Shown piece after piece: positions 622 through 53,921 of a stretch of 64,000 bases of DNA; within the stretch, counting starts at the first letter, position 1; each line of letters begins with the position of its first letter. This DNA comes from Lacunisphaera sp. (lineage in GTDB: Bacteria > Verrucomicrobiota > Verrucomicrobiia > Opitutales > Opitutaceae), in NCBI GenBank assembly GCA_029945445.1, contig JAQSCO010000015.1, forward strand, positions 6,154 through 70,153. Reading direction: 5' to 3'. The translations under genes and the position numbers were made by a program. The notes beneath the pieces were generated by a model. The model was given only the letters and a program-made list of their open reading frames with translations, did not search any database and had not been told where the DNA came from.

Positions 622-2784
622 ATGACCGCCAGTCTCCTTCGCCATCGCCAGCCGGTTCGCACCGCGCTGCTCCTTTGCATCATCGGGGTGATTCCGCTGC
701 GCGCGGCGGACGCGGCCCCGGCCAGATCCGTCACGGACCGCGAATGCCTGGACTGCCATGAATCCTTCACCTCGCCGGTGCACAAGAGCCTCGGCTGCCT
801 CGACTGCCACGACAGCATCACGGAGTCCCCGCACGCCTCGAAGCTGCCCAAGGTGGACTGCGCCTCCTGCCACGAGCGGGTCGCCGCGCAGCACGCCTTT
901 CACCCGCGGCTGGCCCAGTCGCCGCTGCCGGCCGGCGCCGATACCTCCTGCGCGGAATGCCACGGCAAAAAGCACGACACGGTCGGCCTCAAGTCCCCGG
1001 ATTCGCCCTGGACCGGCCCCCGCCAGGCCGAATCCTGCGGCCGCTGCCACGAGGTGGCGCGCAAGGACTACCTTGCCTCGGCGCACGCCCAAAAGCCCGG
1101 CGTCGAGCGCACCGCACCCGACTGCCTGTCGTGCCACCAGGAACCGATCGTGCATCCCGGCGCGAAGGGTTCGCTCGTCGCGCTCAAGCTCGCGCAGGCC
1201 AGGCTTTGCGAATCCTGCCACGTCGGCAACGCCGTGGTCGCCGGCTCGTCCAACCTCGGGGCGAAATTCGTCGCGTCGTTCGATCATTCCGTGCACGGCG
1301 CGGCGCTGCAGGCCGGCAACGCCCAGGCCGCCACGTGCGTCGACTGCCACGGCGCGCATGCCATGAACCGCGCCGCGGTCGCCGGCGCGAAAGTCAACCG
1401 CCTCCACATCACCGAGACCTGCGCCAAGTGCCACGCGGATCAGGCGAAGGAATACAACACCAGCGTCCATGCCGTCGCGCTGCGGCGGGGCAACGTCGAC
1501 TCCGCCGGCTGCACCAGTTGCCACGGCGAGCACGACATCAAGCTCCACACCGACGCCGCGTCGCCGGTGCACAAGGCCAACCTCGCGCAACAGGTCTGCG
1601 CCGAGTGCCACGCGTCCGTGCGGCTGACGAAAAAATACGGGCTCGCGAGCGACACCTTCAAGACCTTCTCCGACAGCTACCACGGCCTCGGCGTGCGCGG
1701 CGGGGCGATCGAGGTGGTCAACTGCGCGAGCTGTCACGGGGTCCACGCCATCAAGTCGCAGAGCGATCCGGCCTCCACGATCAACAAGGCGAACCTCGCG
1801 CTGACCTGCGGCCAGTGCCATCCGGGCGCCAACACCCGGTTCGCCGTCGGCGCCGTGCATGCGAGCGAGGAGAAGCGTGAGGCTTCGCCGTGGCTCTACT
1901 GGATTTCCAACTTCTACGTCTGCCTGATCGTCGCCGTCGTCGGGGGCATGGTGCTGCACAACCTCCTCGATTTCCTGAAAAAGGCGCGGCACAAGCTCGC
2001 CATCCAGAAGGGCGAGGCGCTGGAACTGCACGTCGCGCACCGCCTCTACCTGCGGATGAGCACCAACGAGCGGCTGCAGCACGCCGTGCTCGTGCTCAGT
2101 TTCACGGCGCTGGTCGTCACCGGATTCATGCTGCGCTATCCCGAGGCGTGGTGGGTGGTCGGCATCCGGCACCTGAGCTCGCGCGCCTTCGAGCTGCGTG
2201 GCCTCGCGCACCGCCTCGCCAGCGTCATCCTGCTGGCCAGCGGCATCTGGCACGTCTGCTACCTCGCGTTCACGGCGGCGGGCCGCGGGCTCTTCCGCGA
2301 GATGCTGCCCAACCGGCGCGACCTCACCGACCCGTGGGGCGTGCTCAAATACAACCTCGGGCTGGCGCCGGAGAAGCCCGCGTTCGGTCGCTTCTGCTAC
2401 ATCGAAAAGGCGGAATACTGGGCCATGGCCTGGGGCACCGCGCTGATGACCGTCACGGGCGCGATCCTGTGGTTTGAGAACGCCTCGATGGGTTACTTCA
2501 CCAAGCTCGGCTTCGACATCTCGCGCACCGTGCATTTCTACGAGGCGGTCCTCGCCACGCTGGCGATCATCGTGTGGCATTTCTACTTCGTGGTGTTCAA
2601 CCCCGACGTCTACCCGATGAACCTGGCCTGGCTGACCGGCCGGATGTCCGAGGGCGAGATGATGGAGGAGCACCCGCTGCAGCTGGAGGCGATGAAGGCC
2701 GCCGAGCGCGCCGCGGACGAGACGCCCCCGGAGGAGCCGCCGACTCCGCCCGATGAGCCGGAGCCGCCGGCCGGCGGAATCTGA
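622..2784 (+). CDS. 13-haem cytochrome c fused to a b-type membrane domain
   Basis: A 720-residue exported electron-transfer protein. After a signal sequence (about residues 1-36) come 13 CxxCH motifs within roughly residues 40-410. A transmembrane helix follows near residue 422, then a cytochrome b561-like four-helix domain (about 478-690). Its histidines (ERLQHAV, LAHRLAS, GIWHVCY, TVHFYEA, IVWHFYF) could bind two b haems. The tail is proline/glutamate-rich. The layout suggests a quinone-linked membrane module passing electrons to a periplasmic haem wire; direction and partner are unknown. The frame is open from 55, but ATG 622 is chosen for the Shine-Dalgarno-like GAGGAAAAG before it and the signal peptide after it. 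It is followed by a paralogue at 2917. Confidence 0.85.
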   Translation: MTASLLRHRQPVRTALLLCIIGVIPLRAADAAPARSVTDRECLDCHESFTSPVHKSLGCLDCHDSITESPHASKLPKVDCASCHERVAAQHAFHPRLAQSPLPAGADTSCAECHGKKHDTVGLKSPDSPWTGPRQAESCGRCHEVARKDYLASAHAQKPGVERTAPDCLSCHQEPIVHPGAKGSLVALKLAQARLCESCHVGNAVVAGSSNLGAKFVASFDHSVHGAALQAGNAQAATCVDCHGAHAMNRAAVAGAKVNRLHITETCAKCHADQAKEYNTSVHAVALRRGNVDSAGCTSCHGEHDIKLHTDAASPVHKANLAQQVCAECHASVRLTKKYGLASDTFKTFSDSYHGLGVRGGAIEVVNCASCHGVHAIKSQSDPASTINKANLALTCGQCHPGANTRFAVGAVHASEEKREASPWLYWISNFYVCLIVAVVGGMVLHNLLDFLKKARHKLAIQKGEALELHVAHRLYLRMSTNERLQHAVLVLSFTALVVTGFMLRYPEAWWVVGIRHLSSRAFELRGLAHRLASVILLASGIWHVCYLAFTAAGRGLFREMLPNRRDLTDPWGVLKYNLGLAPEKPAFGRFCYIEKAEYWAMAWGTALMTVTGAILWFENASMGYFTKLGFDISRTVHFYEAVLATLAIIVWHFYFVVFNPDVYPMNLAWLTGRMSEGEMMEEHPLQLEAMKAAERAADETPPEEPPTPPDEPEPPAGGI

Positions 2785-2789
2785 AGTGC

Positions 2790-2808
2790 CACCGGCTGCC
2801 AGCCGGTG
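2790..2808. repeat. Perfect 9-bp-arm palindrome between the two multihaem genes
   Basis: CACCGGCTG and CAGCCGGTG flank a single C, six bases after the first cytochrome's stop codon. There is no T-tract, so it could be an mRNA-stabilising or attenuating hairpin rather than a terminator. It lacks the GTAG tag of the other palindromes in the window. Confidence 0.6.
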
Positions 2809-2916
2809 AAGCCCTGCGGCTGGAAGCCACGCCGCTCACTCCGGGCAAGATACGCTTATACCCCCGCAAGGACTGCACAGCCGCGCGGTCGCAAATGTCG
2901 TATGGTGAATGGTAAC

Positions 2917-5067
2917 ATGAAGCAGTCTTCGTTTTCATCTCTGCGGCTGGCACGCGGCGTGGCGGTCTTGCTCATTCTTTCCACCGGCCTGATTCAGGCG
3001 GCCGAGGCGCCGGCCAAGCCGGTCCCCGCCGTGCCCAACAGCGAGTGCATGGACTGCCACGAGGCGGAGTTCAAGGCGCGCAAGAAGGACCAGCCGAAGG
3101 AATGGGTCGGCGTGCGACCCGAGGTTTTCGCCAAATCCGTCCACGGGAAACTCAACTGCGTCGACTGCCACAACACCCTCAAGGAGACGCCGCACGAGTC
3201 GAAGCTGCCGCCGGCCCAGTGTGCCACCTGCCACGCGCAGCCTGCCGCGCAATTCGCCGCCAGCATCCACGGCATGAGCCAGAAGTTGGGCAACAAGCAG
3301 GCCGCCTCGTGCACCAGTTGCCACGGCGCCCATGACATCGCGCCGGTGAAGCAGGGCGACTCGCCCGTGTTCAAGCTGAACCTGCCGAAAACCTGCGGCA
3401 CCTGTCATGACGACCCGAAGCTCGCGCAGGATTTCCGCATGGGCAAGTCCGCCGCCGCCGAGCATTACCTCGACAGCATCCATGGCCGGGCGCTCGTCAA
3501 GATGGGCCTCATCGTCGCCCCGTCCTGCAACGACTGCCATGGCGTCCACGACATCAAGCGCAGCATCGACCAGGACTCGCACTCCAGCCACGCCAATATC
3601 GCCAAGTCCTGCGGGAAATGCCATGTCGGCATCGAGGAGACCTACAACGAGAGCGTGCACGGCCAACTCCTGCTCAAGGGCGACAAGCAGGGCCCGGTCT
3701 GCATCGACTGCCACAGCGCCCACGACATCGAGAAGCCCGCGACGGCGCACTTCAAGGGGGCGAGCGACGCCAGCTGCGGCAAGTGCCACCAGGACCGGCT
3801 CAAGCATTATAAGGACACTTATCACGGCAAGGCGATGGCCCTCGGCCAGCCCAACGTCGCTTCCGACGTCGCCGCCTGCTACGATTGTCACGGGCATCAC
3901 GATGTGTTTCCGGTGAGCGACCCGCGCTCGCGGCTGTCCAAGGAGAAGATCCAGCAGACCTGTGCACAGTGCCATCCGGGCATCGGCCCGAATTTCACCA
4001 ATTTCCAGCCGCACGCCAACCCGCTGGACAGCGTCAACTACCCGGTCCTGAACAAGGTCTTCCTCTTCATGACGGCGCTGCTGATCGGCACGTTTGGCTT
4101 CTTCGGCCTGCACACCGCCTTCTGGCTCTTCCGCTCGATCTACCTCTACCTGACCGACTCGAAGACCTTCCGCGAGGCCGTCATCAAGTCGAACACGGAC
4201 GACATCCAATACACGCGCTTCACGCCCTTCGAGCGTTTCCTGCACCTGCTGGTCGTGACGAGCTTCCTGCTGCTCGTGATCACGGGCATGCCGCTCAAGT
4301 TTTACTACACGGAGTGGGCGCGGGTGATGTTCAGCGTCATGGGCGGCGCGGGCGTGGCGCGCTCGCTGCACCATTTCGGGGCGATCGTGACCTTCGTTTA
4401 TTTCGCGCTCCACCTCGGCGACCGCGGGATCGCCCTCTGGCAGCAGCGCAAGGCCATCCGCAACCCGGCGACGGGCCGCATTTCGCTCCGCCTTATCTGG
4501 GGCGCGATCTTCGGGCCTGACTCGATGGCCCCTTCGTTCCAGGACTGGCGCGATTTCGTGGCGCACAACCGCTGGTTCTTCGGCAAGGGCCCGCGCCCGC
4601 AGTTCGACCGCTGGACCTACTGGGAGCGCTTCGACTACCTCGCGGTGTTCTGGGGCGTGACCATGATCGGCGTCTCGGGCCTGATCATGTGGTTCCCGAA
4701 GTTCTTCACGACGTTCCTCCCGGGGTGGGCCATCAACATCGCCCTCGTGGTGCACTCGGACGAGGCCCTGCTCGCCGCGGGCTTCATCTTCACCTTCCAT
4801 TTCTTCAACACGCATTTCCGCATCGAGAAGTTCCCGATGGACACCGTCATCTTCTCCGGCCGCGTCTCGCAGACCGAGATGATCCATGAGCGGAAACGCT
4901 GGTATGACCGCCTGGTGGCGTCCGGCAAGCTCGCGGACTTCCGCGTGAAGGACGAGTGGGAAGGGCGCAAGAAATACGCCAAGGCCGTCGGCTTCCTGTT
5001 CTTCGGCACCGGCCTGCTGCTGCTCGTCCTGATCGTCTACGCAATGATCTCGCGGCTGGGCCACTAA
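2917..5067 (+). CDS. 11-haem cytochrome c fused to a b-type membrane domain
   Basis: A 716-residue paralogue of the gene at 622 with the same architecture: signal peptide (MKQSSFSS... ending IQAAEA), 11 CxxCH motifs up to about residue 360, a membrane helix at about 377-403, and a b561-like domain from about 438. Matching histidines are ERFLHLLV, SLHHFGA, FALHLGD, VVHSDEA and FTFHFFN. It differs by an extra C-terminal helix (about 691-712) and no proline-rich tail. The start is the ATG at 2917, just before the signal peptide; an in-frame ATG at 2902 is possible. It is 132 bases downstream of its paralogue and 3 bases upstream of the radical SAM gene, so the three are probably co-transcribed. 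Confidence 0.85.
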   Translation: MKQSSFSSLRLARGVAVLLILSTGLIQAAEAPAKPVPAVPNSECMDCHEAEFKARKKDQPKEWVGVRPEVFAKSVHGKLNCVDCHNTLKETPHESKLPPAQCATCHAQPAAQFAASIHGMSQKLGNKQAASCTSCHGAHDIAPVKQGDSPVFKLNLPKTCGTCHDDPKLAQDFRMGKSAAAEHYLDSIHGRALVKMGLIVAPSCNDCHGVHDIKRSIDQDSHSSHANIAKSCGKCHVGIEETYNESVHGQLLLKGDKQGPVCIDCHSAHDIEKPATAHFKGASDASCGKCHQDRLKHYKDTYHGKAMALGQPNVASDVAACYDCHGHHDVFPVSDPRSRLSKEKIQQTCAQCHPGIGPNFTNFQPHANPLDSVNYPVLNKVFLFMTALLIGTFGFFGLHTAFWLFRSIYLYLTDSKTFREAVIKSNTDDIQYTRFTPFERFLHLLVVTSFLLLVITGMPLKFYYTEWARVMFSVMGGAGVARSLHHFGAIVTFVYFALHLGDRGIALWQQRKAIRNPATGRISLRLIWGAIFGPDSMAPSFQDWRDFVAHNRWFFGKGPRPQFDRWTYWERFDYLAVFWGVTMIGVSGLIMWFPKFFTTFLPGWAINIALVVHSDEALLAAGFIFTFHFFNTHFRIEKFPMDTVIFSGRVSQTEMIHERKRWYDRLVASGKLADFRVKDEWEGRKKYAKAVGFLFFGTGLLLLVLIVYAMISRLGH

Positions 5068-36105: not shown

Positions 36106-36158
36106 GTAGGGCGAATCCTCCGGATGAGCCGCGGCTCGTCGGGGACGACTCGCCCTAC
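36106..36158. repeat. GTAG-tagged REP pair (inverted)
   Basis: Two inverted hairpins start 11 bases after the reductase stop. Each has the layout GTAG-GGC-GA-stem-loop-stem-GA-GCC; the inner stem is ATCC/GGAT in the first and GTCG/CGAC in the second (minus-strand reading), a compensatory difference. A 12-bp palindrome GAGCCGCGGCTC (36126-36137) marks the junction. Confidence 0.75.
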
Positions 36159-42587: not shown

Positions 42588-43222
42588 AGCTCGCCCTGCT
42601 CAGCGAATCGCCGGCGGATGAGGCGGCGCTGCGCGTGCTCGTGGAATACGTGCTCGGCGGGCCGTTCACGCAGGTCGCGCCGGCCCTGCGGGCGCGCGGC
42701 TGGCCGTCGGTCGAGCAGGTGCTGCCGCCGATTCTCCGCCACCTGCATTTCAACACCGACGCCGACGGCCTCGTGGTCGTGTGCGATTCCGACGACTCGG
42801 TCGTGCACACCGCGGAGCACGAGGCGCCAGGCTACTATCATCCGGGCTGCCGGATCTGTCGCCTGCGCGGAGTTTTCCGGCGCACGATCAAGAACCTGCC
42901 CCCGGCGCACGGCCGCGACCGCGTGCTGCGGGCCGTCGGCGTGTGCGTGCCGGCCATCGAGGCGTGGTATCTGTGCGGCCGCGATACGTCCGTGACGGAG
43001 GCGGCATGGGTGCACGGGCAGGCGGCGGGCCGGCCGCCTTACTCGCGGCGCGAGCTCAAGTGGCGGGTCTACGGCACGGAGCGGCCGACGCTCCCGCACG
43101 AGCTGAAGCGCGCGGTGCAGGAGGTCTCGCGCCACCACGGTGACCTCCGCCGGCTGGAGAATGATTTTCCGCAGGGTTTCGGCTCGCTCGCGCGGGATTT
43201 GCGGAGCTGGAAAACAGGGTAG
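42584..43222 (+). CDS. TOPRIM/DUF4276-like protein of the ATPase module
   Basis: A 212-residue protein. Its features fit the TOPRIM-like fold of DUF4276 proteins: an early acidic residue in LLSESPADEAAL (Glu8), an Asp-rich strand end VVVCDSDDS (about 64-72), and the VPAIEAWYLCG stretch (about 122-132) matching the EAW motif seen in that family. The ATG overlaps the ATPase stop (ATGA). The domain would be the nuclease effector of an OLD/AbiL/PARIS-like pair. The stop TAG lies inside the GTAG tag of the downstream REP element, so the C-terminus may have been changed by that insertion. Family assignment is by motif only. Confidence 0.6.
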   Translation: MKLALLSESPADEAALRVLVEYVLGGPFTQVAPALRARGWPSVEQVLPPILRHLHFNTDADGLVVVCDSDDSVVHTAEHEAPGYYHPGCRICRLRGVFRRTIKNLPPAHGRDRVLRAVGVCVPAIEAWYLCGRDTSVTEAAWVHGQAAGRPPYSRRELKWRVYGTERPTLPHELKRAVQEVSRHHGDLRRLENDFPQGFGSLARDLRSWKTG

Positions 43223-43276
43223 GGGCCGTTGCCCTCAACGGTCCTGCGAGGGCGCTTGGGGGGCAAGCGCCCCTAC
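43219..43276. repeat. GTAG-tagged REP pair (inverted), right of the ATPase-TOPRIM module
   Basis: Two hairpins with 9-bp stems: GTAG-GGGCCGTTG-CCCT-CAACGGTCC, and on the minus strand GTAG followed by stem GGGCGCTTG/CAAGCGCCC with a CCCCC loop. The inner stems differ (CCGTTG/CAACGG against CGCTTG/CAAGCG) with pairing kept. The first GTAG contains the stop codon of the upstream gene. Confidence 0.8.
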
Positions 43277-50117: not shown

Positions 50118-53100
50118 ATGCATCTTAAGGCGCTAAAACTACACGGCTTCAAAAGCTTTGCCGACAACACCACCCTGAGTTTCGAGCCCGGCGTCACCGC
50201 CATCGTGGGGCCCAACGGCTGCGGCAAGAGCAACATCGCCGACGCCATCCGCTGGGTGCTGGGCGAGCAGAGCGCGAAGGCCCTCCGCGGCGGCAAGATG
50301 CAGGATGTCATCTTCGAGGGCGCGGACACGCGCAAGGCTGCCCAGTTCTCGGAGGTCGCGCTGCTGCTGACGGAGTGCGAGAAGCAGCTCGGCAGCGACT
50401 TCCACGAGATCGAGATCATGCGCCGCGTCGCCCGCGACGGGCAGGGCGAGTATTTCTTCAACGGCCAGCCGTGCCGCCTGAAGGACATCCACAAGCTTTT
50501 CATGGACACCGGCGTCGGCCGGACCAGCTACTCGATCATGGCGCAGGGCCAGATCGACCAGATCCTGTCGTCCAAGCCCGAGGAGCGCCGCGTGGTGTTC
50601 GAGGAGGCCGCCGGCATCACGAAATACAAGAGCCAGCGCCGCGAGGCGATGAACAAGCTTTCGCTCACCGAGCAGAACCTCGCCCGCGTGTCGGACGTCG
50701 TCACCGAGGTCGCCCGCCAGATCGGCTCGCTGAAGCGCCAGGCCGCGAAGGCCATGCGCTACAAGCGCCTCAGTTTCCGTCTGCGCCACCTCGCGCTGGC
50801 CCGCGACAATTACCAATTTCTCCAGCTCAGCGCGACGCTCGCCGACCTTGACGGCCGCGTGGCCGCCCTGCGTGACGCCGCCAGCACCCGCCGGGGCTCG
50901 CTCGAGGAGCGCACGCGCGCGCTCGACGAGAAGAAGGCCGCCCGCACCTCGCTCAACCAGCGCGTGCAGGACGCCCAGCAGGCCGTCTTCGACCTCCGCT
51001 CACAGAAGGAGCAGGCCGAGAACGCCGCGAACATGGCGCAGGTCAAGCGCACCGGCCTCACCGAGCGCATCGACGCCGGCAAGGACGACCTCAGCGAACT
51101 GGAAATGCAGCTCAAGGAGCTGGCCTCGCAGGTCGACACCGGCGCGCAGGACAAGCAGATGCAGCTTTCGCTCCTCGGCAGCTCCGACGCCGTCTTCCAG
51201 GACCGCAACCGCGAGCTGGCCGTCACCGAGGGTGAGCTGACCAAGGCCGAGCAGCAGCTCAGCCAGGAGAAGTTCCATTTGCTGCAGGTCGAGAGCGCCG
51301 TCGCGCGCCACCGCACCGAAAGCTCCAGCCTCGAGGTGGACGCCCGCACCAGCCAGAACAAGTTCGACCAGCTTTCCACCGAACTCGCCGAGCTCCGCGC
51401 CGCCGTCGAGAGCGCCACCGCCGCCCTCGCGACGGTCCGCACCCGCGTCGAGGAGGCCCGCGCCGACCAGAGCCGCACGACCAACGAGGCGCAGGCCGCC
51501 CAGGCCGCGCTGCAGGACGCGACGCAGAAATTCCGCGAGGCGCAGCGCAAGCTGCAGGACATCGACCGCAACCTCGCCCAGAAGACCGCCCGCCTGAAGC
51601 TGCTCCAGCAATTGCAGGAAAAGTGGGAAGGTTTCGGCGAAGGCGCCAAAGCGCTGCTCTCCGGCCGGCTGGCCTCGAGCATCGGTGAGCAGAAGTTCAC
51701 GCCCATCACGCAGGGGCTCGAGCTGAAGCCGGAATACGCCAAGGCCCTCGAGGCGCTGCTCGGCGCGTCGGTCGAGGCCATCGCCGTGGCCGACGTCACC
51801 ACCGCGCAGAAGATCCTCGCGCAACTCGAGACGGACAAACTCGGCAGCGTGTGCCTCCAGGTGCCCGGCCTGATTGCCGGCGCCAGCGCGGGCGAACTGC
51901 CGGCCGGCCTGCGTCCCGCGACCGAGGCGGTCGCCAATCTCGATGCCTCGCATCCGGCGGCCAGCGTGCTGTCCGCCTGCTACCTGGCGGACGACCTCGG
52001 CGCCTTCCTGGAGTATTGGAAGGCGAATCCCGCTTTCAGCTTCCTCATGGTCGCGACCCAGAAGGGCGAGCTCGTCGACCGGCGCGGCTTGATCTTCGGC
52101 GGCCATCACAAGAAGCCCGCCAACAGCATCGTCCAGCGCGAGGTCGACCTCCGCGAGACAGGCAAGGCCGTGGTGACCGAGTCCAAGGCCCACGACGAGC
52201 AGCGCGCGCTCATCGACCAGCTCAACGCCACGCTCCTGGCGGCCGAGCAGACCCTCGAGCAGAAGCGCAAGGACGTGCTTGCGACCTCGCAGGTCGCCGC
52301 GTCGATCCACACCGAGGAGAAGAACGCGCAGAAGGCCCACGATGACGCGACGAACCGCCTCGTCCGCATGGAGCACGAGCTGAACAACCTCAAGCGCGAG
52401 CACGACGAGGCGCGGTCCCGCCTGGCGAAGGCGCAGGCGCAGCTGACTGAGGCCGAGACCGGCGTGAACGCCCAGAAGCAGAAGATTTCCGCCACCGAAC
52501 TGGCGATCACCGAGAAGCGCGGCGACCGCGACCAGAAGAAGGAAATCCTCGCGTCGGCCCGCCTCGAGCTCGCCGAGCGCCGCCAGAAGGTCGAGGTCCT
52601 CGACCGCGGCCTCGACGAGATGGGCCGCCGCCGCGGCCAGCTCGACGAGCTGCTCGTGCAGCGCCAGATCGAGCTCGAGACCTGGTCCGAGCAGGTGACG
52701 ATTCTGGAGCAGGAGTCCGCCGGCCAGAAGGCCCGCGCCGGGGAGATCGTGACGACCCTCGCGGTTGCGCAGGAGAACGTGGAGAAAATCCGCGGCGAGC
52801 TGACGACCATCGAGCAGGAAATTTCCGCCGTCGAAAACGGCCTGACCTCCATCCGCGACGAGGCCGAGACCTCGCAGGAGGAATTGACCAAGCACGAGGT
52901 CAGGCTGGCCGAGACCCGCGCCCGGACGCAGTTCCTCACCGAGGAAGTGACCCGTGAGTTCGCGGTCGATATCGCCACGCTCGATTGGAAGAACCTGCTC
53001 TGGCACGCCGACGACGAGCCCGCGGGTCTGAAGGAACTGGATCTGGACGAGGAGGAAGAATCTGCAGGGGCGCCGCTGGACGGCGCCCGGGCGTCGTCCA

Positions 53101-53921
53101 GCGACGCCCCTACGGAGAAACGCCGCCGGAAGAAGAAGGAAAACAAGGGCGAGCCGACCGAGGCCGACCTGGCCGCGCTTGACGCGACCAACTGGGACGA
53201 GGTGAAGGCCGAGGTCGACGCGCTGCGCCAGCGCATCGGCGCGATGGGCACCGTGAACCTTGTCGCCATCGAGGAATACTCGGAGCTGAAGCAGCGCTAC
53301 GAATTCCTGAAGACGCAGAGCGACGACCTCATCGGCGCGAAGGCGCAGCTGCTGAAGGCCATCGACGACATCAACCAGACGTCGCTGCAGCAGTTCCAGA
53401 TCACCTTCGACCAGATCCGGAAGAATTTCGCCTACACGTTCAACATCCTGTTCGGCGGCGGCCGGGCCGAGATCGAGCTGGTGACGGCCGAGGACCCGCT
53501 GGAGAGCGGCATCGAGATCGTGGCGCAGCCCCCGGGCACGAAGCTCAAGGGCATCACGCTGCTCTCGGGCGGCCAGAAGACACTGACCGCGGTGGCGCTG
53601 CTGTTCGCGCTCTACATGGTGAAGCCGTCGCCGTTCTGCTTGCTTGACGAGCTGGACGCGCCGCTCGACGAGTCGAACATCCACCGCTTCACGAACCTGC
53701 TGAAGCAGTTCGTGAATGACTCGCAGTTCATCATCATCACCCACAACAAGACGACCATTGCGACCGCGGACGCCATCTACGGCGTGACGATGCAGGAGCG
53801 CGGCGTGTCGAAGATCCTCTCGATGAAGTTCGACCAGGCGAAGGGCGAGGCCGAGGTGCTGCCGACGACGATCGCGGACGCGGTGCGGGCGGCGGCACCG
53901 AGTGCGCCGGTGCAGAGTTGA
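50118..53921 (+). CDS. smc: Chromosome segregation protein SMC
   Basis: A 1267-residue condensin subunit. The head's Walker A is GPNGCGKS (31-38); the signature is [11 protein letters not shown] (about 1148) and Walker B is [14 protein letters not shown] (about 1173). Two long coiled coils flank a hinge at about residues 495-680. It begins [20 protein letters not shown], the standard N-terminus; the frame is open upstream only by chance. At residues ~975-1015, just before the conserved [19 protein letters not shown] helix near the head, an acidic-then-basic linker ([20 protein letters not shown], then [14 protein letters not shown]) interrupts the coiled coil. Its core is encoded by a REP pair (53064-53113). 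The frame stays open, so the protein is likely functional. Confidence 0.95.
53064..53113. repeat. REP pair inserted in frame within smc
   Basis: Two hairpins abut with no spacer. The left one has a GCAG tag with stem GGGCGCCG/CGGCGCCC; the right one, read on the minus strand, has GTAG with stem GGGCGTCG/CGACGCCC. Both have CTGGA loops. The stems differ by a paired T-A to C-G change. It is translated as [18 protein letters not shown]. Confidence 0.8.

Follow-up and report, generated by a model that had tools for sequence, protein, structure and literature searches.

REP palindromes lie in frame in a variable linker of the SMC protein across six genera of Opitutaceae

The smc gene of a Lacunisphaera genome contains, in frame, a 50-nucleotide (nt) pair of inverted REP palindromes, and REPs of four types are recognised at the corresponding place in 8 of 228 smc linkers, from six genera. 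The best reading, in which we have high confidence, is that a tolerant stretch of SMC has captured REPs repeatedly and that in-frame copies have survived and are translated. On this reading, a non-autonomous GTAG-type REPIN, the sort of element that RAYT transposases mobilise, would have been copied into the smc gene of an Opitutaceae bacterium. It would have landed in DNA coding for a linker that evolves quickly and joins the C-terminal coiled coil to the head-proximal coil, and across the family this linker would have received REPs on several occasions. Hydrophilic filler of varied sequence would be acceptable in the linker, and the element has no stop in the GTA-GGG frame, so that in-frame copies would survive and be translated. 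We infer that a RAYT moved the smc element, that insertion into smc was close to neutral, that the linker remains flexible in vivo and that full-length SMC is made.

The window (the whole stretch of 64,000 nt that was analysed) encodes SMC, recognised by the profile TIGR02168 SMC_prok_B at 938.8 bits (cut-off 567.35); the open reading frame listing starts smc at an earlier TTG (50049), and a search of the genome with an SMC fragment gave a single match. The original prediction, made from the sequence alone, placed a REP pair in frame inside smc, in an acidic and basic linker before the head-proximal coil. Its position within the gene, its coordinates and the character of the linker all hold (Table 1). 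The pair consists of two 25-nt GTAG-type REPs, inverted and head to head with 0 nt between them, and occupies codons 983–999 (17 residues) of one frame that is open into smc on either side. Each arm has a G[TC]AG tag, a perfect 8-bp stem directly after the tag and a short loop; the tag of arm 2 is the canonical one and that of arm 1 is one substitution away. Stems of GTAG REPs span 5–13 bp in the available sections of a published survey (PMC3733652), and both smc arms have the short stem-loop of this class. As in a REPIN, the inverted arms fold into one long hairpin, and the predicted folding of positions 53062–53115 beats 200 of 200 shuffles (z of −5.7 for DNA and −7.0 for RNA). An Rfam scan of the window gave no match at gathering scores, and a plasmid search with the smc region gave none.

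Table 1. The smc gene and its REP pair in the window, and the carriers of REPs among the smc linkers compared
Feature	Position	Strand	Description
smc, chromosome segregation protein SMC	50118..53921	+	1267 aa from ATG at 50118; TIGR02168, Pfam SMC_N and SMC_hinge
Linker in SMC	53037..53150	+	38 residues: acidic start, REP-encoded middle, basic end
REP pair (REPIN), 50 nt, no spacer	53064..53113	.	Codes for 16 residues after the Ala codon 53064-53066
REP arm 1	53064..53088	+	GCAGGGGCGCCGCTGGACGGCGCCC; tag GCAG; 8-bp stem; loop GG where TG is expected; 1 mismatch to the pattern
REP arm 2	53089..53113	-	GTAGGGGCGTCGCTGGACGACGCCC; tag GTAG; 8-bp stem; shares its private loop form with arm 1; no mismatch to the pattern
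50-nt pair, genus g1			This genome (L036), G012 (L037), G014 (L038)
50-nt pair, G260 (L080, genus g69)	C29:54693-54742		
50-nt pair, G114 (L134, genus g7)			
REP in G022 (L065, genus g3)			Single short-loop REP
REP in G099 (L083, genus g49)			Single REP, type as at window 43219
REP in G173 (L175, genus g56)			GTAGGAGC-type pair, read in a different frame

The smc pair belongs to a dispersed, multi-copy family. With up to three mismatches, the pattern GTAGGGGCGNSGCTNGACGNCGCCC has 46 matches in the 4.17-Mb genome, forming 36 loci by our count, ten of which are pairs; the reversed pattern has none. The membership of this pair in a REP family, as originally proposed, stands genome-wide; the other window pair taken for REPs (43219–43276) consists of two different REP types. 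The first of these recurs in the smc linker of G099. The genome also encodes a RAYT with flanking REPs, as expected for a REPIN system: the gene at L272:6154–6867 on contig C45 matches Pfam Y1_Tnp and scores 94.8 bits for NF047646 (cut-off 80), and it has REPs of the smc type and of a sister form around it within 250 bp, two of which overlap the 3′ part of its open reading frame. In all, NF047646 has six matches in this genome, three of them above the cut-off. At least one match was found in 11 of 14 genomes tested, and the three without one (G002, G006 and G008) likewise have no match to the REP pattern; in a control set of 14 well-known genomes, six gave a match, one of them above the cut-off. 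Elsewhere in the window, positions 36106–36158 hold a 53-nt palindromic stretch with GTAG and CTAC at its ends and strong predicted folding, and positions 778–4000 show, by eye, repeated segments with CxxCH-type motifs, as in multihaem cytochromes.

Paired changes were originally said to maintain both hairpins in spite of the coding function, a view that the copies do not bear out. The two smc arms differ by an exchange of C-G for T-A; G260 and G114 have the identical exchange in their own smc copies, and an element in dnaE has the same two arm types, so that the element most likely arrived with the exchange. Changes specific to a copy are in the tag or loop in this genome and in G012, and in G014 they produce three wobble pairs in arm 2. 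Both arms of the present element have the loop form CTGGAC, which none of the remaining 44 copies in the list shows; putative causes are correction templated by the hairpin and loss of the source copy.

The linker itself was compared in 228 genomes, comprising the present genome and its relatives. Of 252 family genomes searched, 240 had an SMC match and 227 of these are included, together with one genome of the order; the 13 family genomes outside the sample are seven not entered in a follow-up search, two that gave no match in it and four with partial matches only. An acidic start and a variable stretch precede the conserved head-proximal coil in 226 genomes; rows L090 and L106 anchor poorly in the comparison. 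Linker length ranges from 19 to 123 residues (median of 44), and the text varies, also among REP-free linkers. An AlphaFold2 model, of low reliability except in the long coil (mean pLDDT of 67.2, pTM of 0.24), assigns pLDDT values of less than 50 and no secondary structure to the linker at model residues 248–294, between two long helices, and the linker is predicted to be disordered. Three PDB matches compared residue by residue start beyond the linker. It had been suggested that relatives sharing the linker without a hairpin would mark it as an old protein feature and the palindrome as chance. The first half holds, in that the linker is an old feature of the protein; the second does not, as the absence of a recognised REP from 220 of the 228 linkers points to a later insertion of the palindrome into that old linker, with the proviso that other short-stemmed types could escape recognition. 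The smc gene of the nearest sister, G017 (L039), lacks the pair. An additional scan of genome contigs returned 80 loci, 74 of them with linkers already in the sample, and no REP was seen in the six new linkers.

The carriers fall into several classes (Table 1). The REP pattern of G022 has 53 matches in the genome of G022 (25 of them exact) against 6 in the reversed control, and the smc gene of G136 lacks this REP despite being 99.1% identical around the linker. One rule for GTAG-tagged hairpins, which misses G173, recovers seven carriers in 37,119 bp of linker and none in 265,404 bp of SMC sequence from outside it, to which each genome contributed a median of 663 bp. Hairpins of all tags number 22 in linkers and 15 outside. 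A chance palindrome in low-complexity coding DNA would draw some support from the low complexity of the linker and from codon-shuffled linkers, which yield 0–9 hairpins per round, although this is fewer than the 22 observed. However, the smc pair is an exact member of the dispersed family, with near-identical copies in dnaE and in the smc genes of other genera; copy number rules chance out as a candidate, and we give it a negligible probability. The linkers of L049, L125, L065, L092 and L113 carry other repeat-like texts (NVQLSTSNAQ, GTGFQPV, QKPED and SSELRA). It is as if the smc linker gathered repetitive DNA in general, the repeat status of these texts being putative.

Phylogenies built without the linker bear on how often insertion occurred, although change counts on trees do not separate gain from loss. 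On a quick tree (226 rows), the five REPIN carriers require 5 changes and the eight REP carriers 8; a careful tree (42 rows) gives the same numbers, with starred branches alone forcing 4 for the REPIN, and a longer genus-level tree gives 4 changes for 4 carriers, all forced by starred branches. The position of G014 varies between the two careful trees. Carriers pair with REP-free sisters: the present genome with G017, and G012 with G004. The elements of G260 and G114 are identical at 49 of 50 nt, and the flanking SMC sequence is 71% identical between these two genomes and 63% and 62% identical, respectively, to that of the present genome.

These comparisons were weighed against a single old insertion that preceded the split of genera g1, g69 and g7 and was then lost or overwritten in most lineages. 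Such a history would fit REPINs that occupy the same linker in the same frame, the arm 1 loop change common to the present genome and G012, and the EAAS flank and arm 2 loop change common to G012 and G014. It sits poorly with near-identical G260 and G114 elements in such diverged flanks, with intervening lineages that mostly lack the element and with the other REP types of three further carriers, and we consider it unlikely. Near-identical elements, diverged flanks and different REP types favour separate insertions across genera. Within g1, the loop changes and flanks in common make shared descent plausible for some of the three elements; a single old insertion would fit there, not between genera. 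Six insertion events would result if g1, g69, g7, g3, g49 and g56 had one each. Comparison of five carriers, each with a near REP-free relative, gave no clean empty site because REP-free linkers differ in text too, and therefore neither the length of the insertion nor a target duplication can be read from it. As 50 is not a multiple of 3, insertion of exactly 50 nt would shift the frame, and gain or loss of flanking nucleotides must accompany it.

A REP-type element in smc had been expected to be unusual; the rest of the genome suggests otherwise. We used a heuristic in-frame test, which asks for 50 or more open codons to either side of the REP and, on both sides, for a GC content that peaks at codon position 3 and has its minimum at position 2. 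It was applied to 45 of the 46 matches at their own coordinates, the 46th being the partner arm of a tested locus. As a class, GTAG REPs lie mostly outside genes. Of the 36 loci, 11 passed, and 10 remain after aspS (3 mismatches) is put aside as chance; among the 25 that did not pass, one is at a contig end, and failing the test is no proof of an intergenic place. Five of the genes are identified above a curated cut-off (smc, dnaE, uvrA, purL and lpd), and five by Pfam or by a match below the cut-off (a rhamnulokinase-like kinase, an HsdM-like methylase, a DUF3516 helicase, a UxaE-like protein and a TPR protein). The REP is within the matched stretch in dnaE, uvrA, purL, lpd, the kinase and the helicase, and at its end in the methylase; in the UxaE-like and TPR proteins it is outside, and its place in the gene comes from the heuristic alone. 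By eye, the dnaE, kinase, lpd and TPR sites carry REPs in G014 or G017 too. In all ten genes, at least one arm is in the GTA-GGG frame or its mirror. Of the other two frames, one is stopped by TAG and the other, in CTTGAC copies, by TGA, and these stops would explain the recurrence of the same peptide. This genome suggested a split in which form A of the REP (CG stem) would lie within genes and form B (GG stem) between them, but no such split is claimed: in four relatives, 7 of 30 form A matches (30 fetched of 50) and 4 of 30 form B matches (30 of 35) passed the test.

DnaE offers a parallel. Its loop between NFTPV and IRFGLA (L428–L452, L005) has a short [VI]G[DE][KN] form that is clear in 9 of 21 loci (8 of 20 genomes); in the present genome and in G014 a REPIN fills the loop, whose place is taken by a different REP pair in G011 and by other repeat-like text in G009. 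The dnaE REPIN carriers differ beside the element too, so we claim no insertion length; the G017 locus is incomplete upstream. This loop is a second recurrent site of REP or repeat capture in the genus, and smc is not unique as an in-frame host.

Selection would be a different explanation for recurrence in smc: the element or its peptide, acting as a hairpin, in RAYT binding, as a translational pause or as a longer acidic linker, would be favoured and therefore repeatedly gained or kept. In G260, at 0–1 mismatches, the sole locus of the smc REP form is smc itself, a lone close copy that plain random insertion does not predict, and REPs also occur in dnaE and uvrA, in keeping with remarks on replication and repair genes in the available sections of PMC3733652. 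Against this, most linkers and the sisters of carriers lack a recognised REP, G014 tolerates its wobble pairs, and the kinase, lpd and TPR protein are also struck, which leaves no single functional class. We judge selection of the element improbable. We are equally doubtful that Opitutaceae REPINs prefer the smc linker as a place to land or to take refuge, to the benefit of host or element, with REPs gained and kept beyond what tolerance explains. If they did, the hairpin might tune translation of smc, or linker length might tune the SMC arms, with G260 as the clearest case.

Capture by a tolerant linker, our preferred reading, has precedents. Intragenic, in-frame GTAG REPs were published in 2013 by Di Nocera and, in the parts of that article available to us (PMC3733652), are most numerous in Opitutus terrae, often as dimers within genes, many of them for replication and repair; flexible linkers are suggested there as tolerated sites, and recB of two Xanthomonas species is struck at about the same site. 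The smc element shares with the O. terrae REPs the Opitutaceae host, the GTAG tag, the dimers and the intragenic place, and differs in that REPs occur here in one linker across six genera; smc is absent from the main text of that article, and a literature search on REP with SMC found nothing relevant among the papers listed. Like the REPINs and RAYTs of Pseudomonas, as described in portions of PMC3116915, it is an inverted doublet tied to a RAYT gene; those REPINs are extragenic, whereas the smc arms have no spacer and lie in frame in coding sequence. With Rickettsia palindromic elements, invoked in the original prediction and described in excerpts of PMC10969869 and PMC3733652, it shares in-frame palindromes in unrelated genes. 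Those are about 150 bp long, or of CGTC type, and occur in other bacteria, and the GTAG tag and 50-nt length of the smc pair speak against that label; the pair behaves like such an element but probably belongs to a different family. Translated REPs are thus already known in Opitutaceae. A mobile palindrome of this kind is a natural insertion map, marking stretches of SMC and DnaE, essential proteins of the chromosome and of its replication, and of the repair protein UvrA that accept 16–20 foreign residues, and with REPs in one linker across six genera, tolerance of translated REPs versus selection for them becomes testable.
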